Shown here: positions 46,107 through 49,295 of the stretch, piece by piece | Numbering within the stretch: position 1 is the stretch's first letter | Layout: each line of letters opens with the position of its first letter | Origin: Thiotrichaceae bacterium | GTDB taxonomy: Bacteria > Pseudomonadota > Gammaproteobacteria > Thiotrichales > Thiotrichaceae | Direction: 5' to 3' | DNA length: 49,295 bases | Assembly (NCBI GenBank): GCA_023144895.1 | Contig: JAGLEV010000065.1 | Coordinates: 1 to 49,295 of the forward strand | Translations under genes and position numbers: made by a program | Notes under the pieces: model-generated | What the model saw: only the letters and a program-made list of their open reading frames with translations | Database searches by the model: none | Told to the model about the DNA's origin: nothing

Positions 46107-46782
46107 AACAGCCACGAGTGCTTGTTCAGCGGCCTTATTAATTGATGATGAGATCAAGGTAGAGTTCAAGCTTGCACCACGAGAGCATACCCGGTTGATT
46201 TTACCGATGGTGGAATTGTTATTGCAAGATGCCGATTTAAAGCTGACTCAGCTTGATGCTATCGCCTTTAGCCGAGGTCCCGGTGCTTTTACCGGTCTAC
46301 GAATAGCCACAGGGGTCACCCAAGGGCTTGCGCTCGCTGCTGATCTTGCCGTGATTCCTGTTTCTACACTGGCAGCAATGGCTCAATCTGCTTATCATTT
46401 ATATGGTCATTCTAATGTTGTGGCCGCTTTAGATGCACGAATTGCTGAAGTGTATTGGGGGCAATATTACAATGATAATGGCATTATGAAACCGAGTATT
46501 GCTGAACAAGTGTGTAAACCCAGCGAAACTCCTTTAATTACGATACCTGATTGTTGTGCTGTCGGTTCAGCTTGGGCGGAATATGCTATAGAGCTTAATG
46601 AGCGGCAGGGTTCACAGCTAAGTCAAGTGGATAGTGAATTAAACCCTTCGGCAGAATTTATTGCCTTACTCGCAGTAGAAGATTATCAGCAACAAAAATG
46701 GGTCGATGCCAGTGAGGCTCAACCTATTTATCTACGTGACAATGTGGCTCAAACGATTGCTGAGCGTCAGAAAAATGCTTGA
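46087..46782 (+). CDS. tsaB: tRNA threonylcarbamoyladenosine synthesis protein TsaB
   Basis: TsaB scaffolds TsaD and TsaE in making t6A37 on tRNAs decoding ANN codons. From ATG 46087 (231 aa): MKILAIETATSACSAALL, the HTRLILPMVELLL helix and the FSRGPGAFTGLRIATGV signature. I chose 46087 because the family begins at this MKIL strand. Its first 20 bp lie inside yoaA, and 8 bp of its end overlap pncC. Confidence 0.95.
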   Translation: MKILAIETATSACSAALLIDDEIKVEFKLAPREHTRLILPMVELLLQDADLKLTQLDAIAFSRGPGAFTGLRIATGVTQGLALAADLAVIPVSTLAAMAQSAYHLYGHSNVVAALDARIAEVYWGQYYNDNGIMKPSIAEQVCKPSETPLITIPDCCAVGSAWAEYAIELNERQGSQLSQVDSELNPSAEFIALLAVEDYQQQKWVDASEAQPIYLRDNVAQTIAERQKNA

Positions 46783-47245
46783 ATCACTAGCGAAGACTGT
46801 CGCTAATCATTTATTGACCCAGAATTTAATCCTTGCGAGTGCAGAATCTTGTACGGGTGGCTGGGTTGCTAAGCTTATGACCGATATTGCGGGTAGTTCG
46901 GCTTGGTTTGATCGTGGTTTTGTCACTTATACTAATGAATCTAAGCAAGACTTACTCGGTGTTAATAGTGCGACTTTAGAACGGTATGGTGCAGTGAGTG
47001 AACAGACTGTTGCGGAAATGGTCAGTGGTGCATTGATACATTCCTCCGCTAATATAGCGGTTGCCATTAGTGGAATAGCAGGACCGACTGGAGGCAGTAA
47101 GGAAAAACCAGTGGGTATGGTTTGCTTTGCATGGCAACAAAAAGATCAATTCGTACGGGTAAGTACACAGTATTTTAAGGGTGATAGAGGGAGTGTGCGG
47201 GAGCAGGCGGTGGTTTTTATATTAGAGAAGATGATGGAATGTTGA
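46775..47245 (+). CDS. pncC: Nicotinamide-nucleotide amidase (CinA C-terminal domain)
   Basis: PncC deamidates nicotinamide mononucleotide to nicotinate mononucleotide, recycling NAD. From ATG 46775 (156 aa) it is the stand-alone C-terminal domain of CinA: LILASAESCTGGWVAKLMTDI with the catalytic Ser/Lys region, FVTYTNESKQDLLGV and AISGIAGPTGGSKEKPVG. No N-terminal MoCF domain is present. It overlaps tsaB by 8 bp and ends just before the IS1 remnant. Confidence 0.93.
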   Translation: MLESLAKTVANHLLTQNLILASAESCTGGWVAKLMTDIAGSSAWFDRGFVTYTNESKQDLLGVNSATLERYGAVSEQTVAEMVSGALIHSSANIAVAISGIAGPTGGSKEKPVGMVCFAWQQKDQFVRVSTQYFKGDRGSVREQAVVFILEKMMEC

Positions 47246-47246
47246 C

Positions 47247-47651
47247 TTGAATTCAGCCACTCATCAAGTTCTAAAACATCACCTTTTTGAGGAGTCAGTA
47301 AATTCTCTTTTAGTTTGGGCAATGGTTGGACTTTTTTTAATCCAAGCTGCGACCGTTTGACGAGCAACGCCAAAGCTACGCTCTATGCCTCGTAAGCTAC
47401 TACCTTCTTGATAGGCACGAATTATTTCTTCTTTTCTCTCTTCAGTATAACGAGCTTCTGGATTCAGTGTTCCGTACTTGCCACACTCATGGCAGTAGAA
47501 TTTTTGCTTGCCCTTAGTGGTTGTTCCATTTTTTTTAAGCTTTGTGCTTTTGCAGTGAGTACAGGAATGTGTTGTTCGAATCATTAGCTTTATTCATGTT
47601 ATTTAGTGTGGATCAGTATTATATAGTAACAGTTAGAATTCAACCACTACC
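47247..47651 (-). mobile_element. IS1-family insertion sequence remnant
   Basis: On the minus strand the element starts at about 47651 with GGTAGTGGTTGAATTC, resembling an IS1-family terminal repeat (GGTRNTG...). It encodes an InsA-like protein, a seven-A slippery run (47338-47332) and then the first residues of InsB in the -1 frame (KGDVLELDE, including the first DDE-box Asp). It stops abruptly at about 47262, where the DNA becomes GAGTGGCTGAATTC, a near copy of the left end in the same orientation. Most of insB and the right end are gone. Confidence 0.72.
47279..47584 (-). pseudogene. insA: IS1-family InsA-like protein of the truncated element
   Basis: A 101-codon frame with a zinc finger (CTHCKSTK...FYCHECG), a short DNA-binding arm and a helix-turn-helix with SSLRGIERSFGVARQTVAAWI. 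In IS1, InsA represses transcription and its -1 frameshift product InsAB' is the transposase. The frame is intact and the A7 slippery run (ATT-AAA-AAA-A) is retained, but the InsB part ends after about 15 residues, so the transposase is dead. InsA itself could still be made. Confidence 0.72.
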
Positions 47652-47724: not shown

Positions 47725-47852
47725 CTCTAACGCTCGCTTAAGTTGTCGGGCGGTTTGATTTAACTGAACTCAATCATACGATGAAGTTAAACGAAACTAC
47801 AGAATGACGAGAATCCCTGAGTTAGCCCGTCAAATTAAAGCGTTTGTTAGGT
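47725..47852. repeat. Integron attC-like recombination site 1
   Basis: CTCTAAC (47725-47731; R'' box, consensus RYYYAAC) pairs with GTTAGGT (47846-47852; R' box GTTRRRY). The arms next to them pair imperfectly: CGCTTAAGTTGTCGGGC on the left matches the reverse complement of the right arm (CGCTTTAATTTGACGGGC) with single bulges. The 128 bp length and imperfect-stem layout are those of attC (59-be) sites of chromosomal integrons. It marks the left boundary of the cassette carrying the next gene. Confidence 0.78.
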
Positions 47853-48145
47853 TTTTATACAGTACAGTCGTGATTTAACAACATTTCTTATTTTTTAGCC
47901 ACCCCTCATATTTTTTGTTCTTTTCTCTTTTAGCTTAAAAGCTTTTATTTGGAAATTAACAGCAATTTGCTCCTATATTATTGCTTTTAAGATGAAGCGA
48001 AATGTTTTTGACTTTAATGCGTTTTGTTGAGAACTAACAGCGACTAGCTCCCTTCCTTTTTTTTTATACTATACTAATTTGGAGTACGACTATGCTTAAT
48101 AGTTATACTTAAAGTTGAAATTTTATAAATTAAAAGGAATAAGTT
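47853..48145 (+). other. Cassette leader with duplicated mini-hairpins
   Basis: 293 bp without a gene, very AT-rich. It has an imperfect direct repeat: TAACAGCAATTTGCTCC (47957-47973) and TAACAGCGACTAGCTCC (48035-48051), 14 of 17 matching and each able to form a tiny AGC/GCT stem. TATACTATACTAAT near 48066 could hold a -10 element. AAAAGGAAT precedes the gene's ATG by about 8 bp. Integron cassettes seldom carry their own promoter, so this leader is unusual. Confidence 0.45.
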
Positions 48146-48835
48146 ATGAAATATAAAAAAAGTAATAATAAGCTCTTACTAATATCAGCAATGCTACTAT
48201 CTAGTCTACTTTCCTACAACAATGCAATAGCCAATGAATGTAAAATAAAAGTAAGCTATTCAAATAACCTTTTCAATACAAGGGTGACAGGTAGTAACAA
48301 CTTTGTGATTCATCATAATTCAACACAAACAACACTGCGCAACCATATGAGAGTTATAAGAAATACTGGAAGGCATAGTCTTAAGATAAAATATTGGGAT
48401 ATATCTGGTGATCACTGGAAAACAATCGCGCCTGGCTCTACTAAAAGAGTTTCTGGAGATTTAAAAAAGACAGAATGCTTAGGACAAGCACACTCAAGTT
48501 CAGTTGTTGTTCAAAAAAAAATAAGATGTAAAGCAGGCGGTGGTATGGATCTAGCATATAATGCTCATAGCAGGAGAGTTACTGTGCGCTTTACAAGAAC
48601 AAGAAGAGGGAATCCCTTGTCTTCTTTAAGACAAGGTGAATGTAGCTTAGTTGGAATAACTAGTGGTGTTAGTAAATTTTGCCATTCAGGTGTTAATGAT
48701 ATGATCTGGAAGCTCAATTCTCGTAGTATAAATGTCATTTCACGACAAGCCCCCTATGCGATAAAACTTAAAAATGGAGGCACTTTTACTTTATCGGTAC
48801 GAAATATTAGTAATGGATGTATTAATATCCGTTAA
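48146..48835 (+). CDS. Secreted protein of unknown function, integron cassette gene
   Basis: A 229-residue protein with a signal peptide (basic KYKKSNNKL, then a hydrophobic core, cleaved near AIAN at residue 30). The mature 200 residues hold six cysteines (in ECKIK, TECLGQ, IRCKAG, GECSL, FCHSG and GCINIR), so up to three disulfides, and no tryptophan-rich or enzymatic motif. It is Arg/Lys/Ser/Thr-rich and looks beta-stranded. I recognise no family. Codon use differs from neighbours (AGA, AGG and ATA are frequent, where the chromosome uses CGT and ATT). It lies between two attC-like sites on the expected strand. Confidence 0.82.
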   Translation: MKYKKSNNKLLLISAMLLSSLLSYNNAIANECKIKVSYSNNLFNTRVTGSNNFVIHHNSTQTTLRNHMRVIRNTGRHSLKIKYWDISGDHWKTIAPGSTKRVSGDLKKTECLGQAHSSSVVVQKKIRCKAGGGMDLAYNAHSRRVTVRFTRTRRGNPLSSLRQGECSLVGITSGVSKFCHSGVNDMIWKLNSRSINVISRQAPYAIKLKNGGTFTLSVRNISNGCINIR

Positions 48836-49061
48836 ATCTGCATGTTTGTAGATTAAAGAGAGATCTCTTATTTTTACCTATGAGGTCTGCTACAAGGGAT
48901 TTAGGATATCGGCACTACCTCATTCACTGCTCTTCTTTCTTTAATTTTTTTATAAAAATTTTCTGAAATAGGATAGATTTTCATCTATCTGACGAGACTA
49001 AAAAACTAGTATTTTTGAGAATTTAATGAATGAACGTTTATACAGCAATCCCCACTCTAAT
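48836..49061. other. Cassette 3' non-coding region
   Basis: No gene. It contains two small hairpins: AAGAG/CTCTT followed by ATTTTT (48856-48875), a weak terminator candidate for the cassette gene, and GATAGAT-TTTC-ATCTATC (48972-48989). A 230 bp tail before attC is longer than usual for a cassette, where attC normally abuts or overlaps the stop codon. Confidence 0.4.
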
Positions 49062-49178
49062 ACCTAACGCCGCGTACACACGCAGCTAACTCAACCTTGT
49101 TTTTGTGCAAAAATGAGCGATAGCGAAGCACAAAAATAAGGTTGAGTTAGCTGTCGTTTGTGATGCGACTTGTTAGCT
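49062..49178. repeat. Integron attC-like recombination site 2
   Basis: ACCTAAC (49062-49068; exact RYYYAAC) pairs with GTTAGCT (49172-49178; GTTRRRY with one mismatch). Between them, CAGCTAACTCAACCTT and its complement AAGGTTGAGTTAGCTG form an exact inner stem, extended by TTTTTGTGC/GCACAAAAA, closed by a loop. Outer arms (CGCGT-ACACACG against CGCATCACAAACG) pair imperfectly. The 117 bp size and box order fit attC. It would be the attC of the secreted-protein cassette. Confidence 0.75.
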
Positions 49179-49295
49179 ATTTTATTTAAATACAGCTACT
49201 TACATAATGAACTTTCAAAAAACAACAAATATGCTTTTCCTTCTACAAGTTATATCTTAACTGATTATTAATCAATTATTTTTTGACTAAATTTT
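49179..49295. other. Right window edge, AT-rich
   Basis: 117 bp of very AT-rich sequence with no frame, integrase or further attC visible. If the array continues, the next cassette starts here. Confidence 0.4.

Follow-up and report, generated by a model that had tools for sequence, protein, structure and literature searches.

Chromosomal integrons are recognised by an integrase gene (intI) and an attI site at the head of an array of gene cassettes, whereas clusters of at least two attC sites with no nearby integrase are classed as CALIN. The gene cassette itself is defined as one ORF between two directly oriented attC sites, and the cleavage point of attC is the G^TT of its R' box. An attC site has complementary ends (R'', RYYYAAC; R', GTTRRRY) and folds into an imperfect hairpin with an L''/L' stem, an unpaired spacer, and extra-helical bases that, in known sites, lie on the R''-L'' arm (PMC2727003). 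Near-identical attC sites break assemblies, which is a known problem of draft genomes (PMC9024848). A literature search that combined attC, integrons, and Thiotrichaceae yielded one paper, a riverine resistome study.

The window analysed here is an entire contig (C66, 49,295 bp) of a Thiotrichaceae genome of 2.64 Mb in 103 contigs. We confirm that a mobile gene cassette of 1.3 kb, flanked by two attC sites, lies at the ragged end of this contig. Both sites have the sequence, the structure, and the orientation of attC, and the genome also contains other attC sites and the C-terminus of an integron integrase. The element is of a known kind, either a chromosomal integron array split by the assembly or a CALIN. 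The locus is very probably where an array of integron cassettes has its distal end on the chromosome of a gammaproteobacterium of the Thiotrichaceae family, a reading that includes the proposed excision and integration of a 1337-bp circle by the integrase.

Sequence and Folding of the attC Sites

The two sites are as follows.

47725–47852, minus strand: attC site 1, with which the array terminates, with R'' ACCTAAC (47852–47846) and R' GTTAGAG (47731–47725); identified by folding and by covariance model R2.
49062–49178, minus strand: attC site 2, with R'' AGCTAAC (49178–49172) and R' GTTAGGT (49068–49062); identified by folding, by model R2, and by compensatory changes.

The ends are complementary in both cases, with at most one departure from the consensus in each box of site 2 and one in the R' box of site 1, whose last base does not fit GTTRRRY. 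Site 2 divides the cassette from its neighbour beyond the contig end. As single-stranded DNA, both sites form long bulged hairpins in which the R and L arms are paired, including an L''/L' stem, the spacers are unpaired, and the R''-L'' arm carries extra-helical bases. Relative to dinucleotide shuffles, the folding of site 2 is far more stable (z = −7.7/−8.0) and that of site 1 moderately more stable (z = −2.75/−2.1).

Covariance model R2 was built from four attC sites, three of them in a contig of another genome of the same genus (G004, contig C145) and one in contig C102 of the genome under study; all four lie behind genes in undisputed cassette order, and the two sites of the window were held out. 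Both held-out sites match this genus model. The score is 82.2 bits for site 2 (E = 2.5e-23) and 21.4 bits for site 1 (E = 3.3e-5 in a 2.1-kb region, 0.0036 in 224 kb). The remaining matches in the 224-kb set are again attC sites, some intact and others decayed or halves. The presence of two attC sites at these positions, which an earlier note had proposed from the letters of the sequence, is thus borne out by the folding scores and by the held-out matches. Site 1 is absent from the default R2 search of the genome, and in a constrained-fold scan of the examined genome pieces, in which site 2 and the C102 site are conspicuous, it ranks with the highest of the background scores. Taken alone, site 1 therefore has modest support. 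Its R'-side half recurs in contig C82 with 89% identity.

When seven sites are aligned to R2, 93.4% of the stem cells are standard pairs and compensatory (both-sided) changes occur in 20 of the 39 pairs, figures that lean towards the model because the alignment was fitted to it; these figures are not reproduced by shuffles or by slid structures. This bears on the idea that the sites are unrelated palindromes (REP- or MITE-like repeats, or terminators) that flank a gene by chance. Palindromes ending in GTT and AAC are common, and inner stem sequences are shared among the sites, as that idea would have it. Nevertheless, the R and L arms are conserved, the spacers are unpaired, the stems vary yet compensate, and the identical type of site occurs in true cassette arrays and near genomes that carry IntI, which makes a chance origin extremely unlikely.

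Neither site has a significant match to model R1, which was built from short class 1–type attC sites and was rejected as too narrow. A scan of Rfam gave merely chance matches, all under the gathering scores. Motif scanners overlooked attC sites that contain G-T pairs or bulges, or scored them too low, and were therefore replaced by constrained folding and covariance models.

Polarity of the Array

The polarity of attC can be read from annotated class 1 integrons on plasmids and from four other genomes, namely G008 (with intI and four cassettes in one piece), G004 (contig C145), G009, and G035. Read in the direction of the cassette, the attC sites of all these mostly have ..TAACA.. at the start and, behind a spacer of GC or AC type, ..GTTR.. 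at the end. The sites of the window fit this pattern on the minus strand. In G004 C145, in G008, and in the plasmid class 1 integrons, there are genes upstream of attC sites that read like the minus strand of the window, and this reading puts the extra-helical bases on the R''-L'' arm, as in known sites (PMC2727003). The R2 scores agree, as site 2 has 82.2 bits on the minus strand and 43.2 on the plus strand, and site 1 matches on the minus strand only. Because both sites read on the minus strand, the gene at 48146–48835 (plus strand) is antisense within its cassette, and the array runs from the contig end leftward, with site 1 as its last attC. The parts of the cassette are the following.

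47731–49067, minus strand: predicted mobile unit of 1337 bp, with cuts at the G^TT of both R' boxes, as deduced from the sequence and the established attC cleavage point.
47853–48145, plus strand: leader of 293 bp between site 1 and the gene, A+T-rich (27.6% GC), the presumed place of the promoter.
48146–48835, plus strand: P0001, gene for a 229-aa exported protein, antisense to the cassette; residues 125–228 are a four-cysteine domain with homologues.
48836–49061: tail of 226 bp between the gene and site 2, in which all wholly contained ORFs are shorter than 30 aa.

The earlier note was right to describe an integron-type cassette bracketed by two attC sites that share their relative order, but it placed the gene on the expected strand, that is, with the sites running on the plus strand and the gene as a sense cassette. 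The sites are indeed near-palindromic, and the 43 bits of site 2 on the plus strand are what such a reading has in its favour. One would then have to account for the 39 bits between the strands at site 2, for the lack of any plus-strand match at site 1, for extra-helical bases and spacers that fit the minus strand, for the agreement of all examined arrays of known polarity, and for a sole ORF separated by 293 bp from the site before it and by 226 bp from the attC that would belong to it. A plus-strand array is hence very unlikely, and the orientation of site 2, which had been considered uncertain, is resolved as minus. The lengths of leader and tail had been noted as atypical; they cease to be a puzzle with the minus-strand polarity, since the gene is antisense to the cassette. 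The minus strand of the cassette has no ORF longer than 57 aa. This is a clean case in which attC polarity taken from a covariance model overturns the intuition given by the strand of the gene.

On the minus strand, the order would be the previous cassette (off the contig), attC site 2, the cassette, attC site 1, and the chromosome with the IS1 remnant and cinA. The bottom strand of each attC, which is the plus strand of the window, would fold into a bulged hairpin, and an integron integrase would cut this hairpin at the G^TT in R', thereby excising or integrating the 1337-bp circle. We infer that the sites are still able to recombine.

The Antisense Gene of the Cassette

P0001 is a real ORF, with an N-terminus resembling a signal peptide and six cysteines outside it, in line with the exported, six-cysteine product of the earlier note. 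Its description as an orphan is wrong: no family was found in Pfam or PHROGs, but residues 125–228, in the C-terminal half, have homologues with 30–43% identity and four shared cysteines in six genomes of the same family. These homologues are secreted and occur in Thiotrichaceae MAGs, including Cocleimonas, on which the assignment of the genome to this family or its vicinity is based; a more distant homologue in an Odyssella MAG retains fewer of the four cysteines. The relatives were obtained by a same-order search and a family alignment, P0001 alone as query giving no relative in the scan of named genomes. The protein has no plasmid match, a single chance-level line in NCBIfam, and, in the PDB, short matches to designed proteins with no passing stretch. 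At the loci of the homologues, R2 finds no attC and folding finds none with canonical features. The AlphaFold models are of low confidence (mean pLDDT of 38.5 for the protein alone and of 47.0 with seven sequences) and suggest a beta-rich protein. The most probable prediction for P0001 is a small, beta-rich protein with disulphide bonds that is secreted or sits in the envelope. Exported cargo is common in cassettes, with signal peptides on 11.6% of the cassette proteins of Xanthomonas (PMC12444791). The likely history is that of a host-family secreted gene captured, with an additional N-terminal region, as a cassette. The difference in codon use between the gene and its neighbours, to which the earlier note had pointed, is present but weak (fourth lowest of 30, about 1.4 SD; G+C of 34.5% in the gene vs. 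39.2%).

An antisense gene cannot be read from the array promoter Pc and would depend on its own promoter, presumably within the 293-bp leader. Such a promoter is plausible, since cassettes with their own promoters and antisense transcription within arrays are documented elsewhere (PMC8876359, PMC11014356). A consensus promoter scan of the leader gives one weak match (47950–47979) that is no better than chance. The sequence TAACAGCRAYTWGCTCC occurs twice in the leader, in imperfect form, at 47957–48055, upstream of the P0001 gene; the two copies are spaced by about 80 bp and could be operator-like or a decayed repeat.

Chromosomal Flank and Other Integron Pieces

The cassette is bordered by the following features.

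46706–47245, plus strand: cinA (pncC), the chromosomal flank; recA lies directly 3' of it in a congener, not here.
47279–47584, minus strand: truncated N-terminus of an IS1-family transposase (InsA-like), positions 1–88 of 199 in NF033558.
49179–49295, minus strand: 3' part of the adjoining cassette, which the contig end truncates; it has a near, though diverged, copy in contig C60, adjacent to a half attC.

In the congener G003, the genes mrcB-TPR-helicase-tsaB-cinA-recA-recX-alaS-lysC form one run, with a gap of about 160 bp between cinA and recA. In the genome under study, recA-recX-alaS-lysC is found on contig C60, behind unrelated genes. Since the adjacency of cinA and recA is broken here, the interval is not conserved chromosome, and the IS1-family fragment, which sits between cinA and site 1, may have had a part in breaking it. 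The proposal of a cassette at an array edge survives, because both sites have covariance matches and the interval is not conserved in the congener; site 1 is the last attC before the cinA flank.

Other pieces of integron are scattered in the genome. Contig C102 has an intact attC (L107, 2582–2700, minus strand; 109 bits by R2), and a gene for a DNA cytosine methyltransferase, on the minus strand and truncated by the end of the contig, stops 18 bp before it. C102, at the nth/rnf locus, is a second array end in this genome. An FAD-dependent oxidoreductase gene is apparently split between the ends of contigs C103 and C38 (L033, 11337–11626; L104, 2456–3498), with decayed attC sites on both sides; it is probably one cassette. 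Contigs C60 and C82 have half attC sites. At the end of C60 (L031, 44–734), a toxin-antitoxin pair of PIN-domain/ribbon-helix-helix-like type is antisense to the half attC at 1505–1592 and is possibly another reversed cassette. In G003, contig C25 (L148, 4575–7342) has a HicAB-like toxin-antitoxin cassette followed by an attC, and then an opposite-strand gene resembling a group II intron reverse transcriptase before the following attC, as in attC-associated introns.

The earlier note saw no integrase, and indeed the window has no intI. The genome, however, has the C-terminus of an integron integrase (57 aa) truncated by the end of contig C76 and unlinked to the window. The best match of this fragment is to positions 264–315 of TIGR02249, better than to XerC/D. 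Among the 39 genomes searched (this one and its relatives), 19, including four of the five congeners, have a full IntI gene that passes the curated cut-off. The array was presumably built by the integrase whose C-terminus lies on C76.

The window thus has two attC sites, no intI, and a contig end 117 bp beyond site 2 (49178). It could be a CALIN, that is, what is left of an old, now decaying and (nearly) immobile array at cinA that an IntI acting in trans had seeded. This is a sub-case of the best explanation; the sole point of difference is the presence or absence of an integrase at the head of the array. A CALIN would be consistent with the decayed or half attC sites in several parts of the genome (C60, C103, C38, and C82), with array ends at two separate loci (cinA and nth/rnf), with a weak site 1 that has a non-consensus R', and with a sole IntI piece truncated by a contig end. 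Yet both site 2 and its counterpart in C102 are intact, with a high degree of structure, and the break of the contig falls exactly at the array, where near-identical attC sites of a longer array would be expected to cause it. An integrase-less remnant is therefore a serious possibility, somewhat short of even chances.

Comparison with Known Systems

The probable distal end of a chromosomal integron array described here is a record of integron cassettes in Thiotrichaceae-type bacteria and of an attC family specific to this lineage, as well as of the likely capture, in the form of an antisense cassette, of a host-family secreted gene. The reversed gene, the lineage-specific attC sites, and the scattered remnants are mildly surprising. 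Own-promoter cassettes, antisense transcription, and scattered attC clusters all have precedents in the literature; in the integron literature on promoters, antisense transcription, and attC clusters, we found no count of cassettes with a single reversed gene. One may speculate that terminal cassettes in this lineage carry self-promoted antisense genes (here one for an exported, Cys-rich protein) whose transcription opposes that of the array, so that the last cassette would be constitutively expressed and would act as an array silencer at the junction with the chromosome, although we consider this improbable.

Like the sedentary chromosomal integrons (the Vibrio cholerae superintegron and the Xanthomonas ilvD integron), the present locus has R''/R' and L''/L' boxes, unpaired spacers, and extra-helical bases, with cassettes at a chromosomal locus and IntI in the lineage. 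In contrast to them, the array is seen in fragments only, without its head and attI, and its attC family is lineage-specific, with long palindromic stems. With CALIN it shares a cassette bracketed by attC sites, no integrase on the same contig, and scattered decayed attC sites in the genome, but the array here is cut off by the contig end, and the absence of an integrase is a statement about this contig. The P0001 domain at residues 125–228 resembles the exported four-cysteine proteins of Thiotrichaceae (about 30–43% identity, four shared cysteines), which lie outside detectable cassettes and lack the additional N-terminal region of about 85 aa with two more cysteines. Finally, a long non-coding leader and a gene independent of Pc are also found in cassettes with their own promoters (cmlA, toxin-antitoxin cassettes, and the gene-less promoter cassettes of Vibrionaceae), from which the present one differs in that its coding strand is antisense to the array and its promoter is putative.
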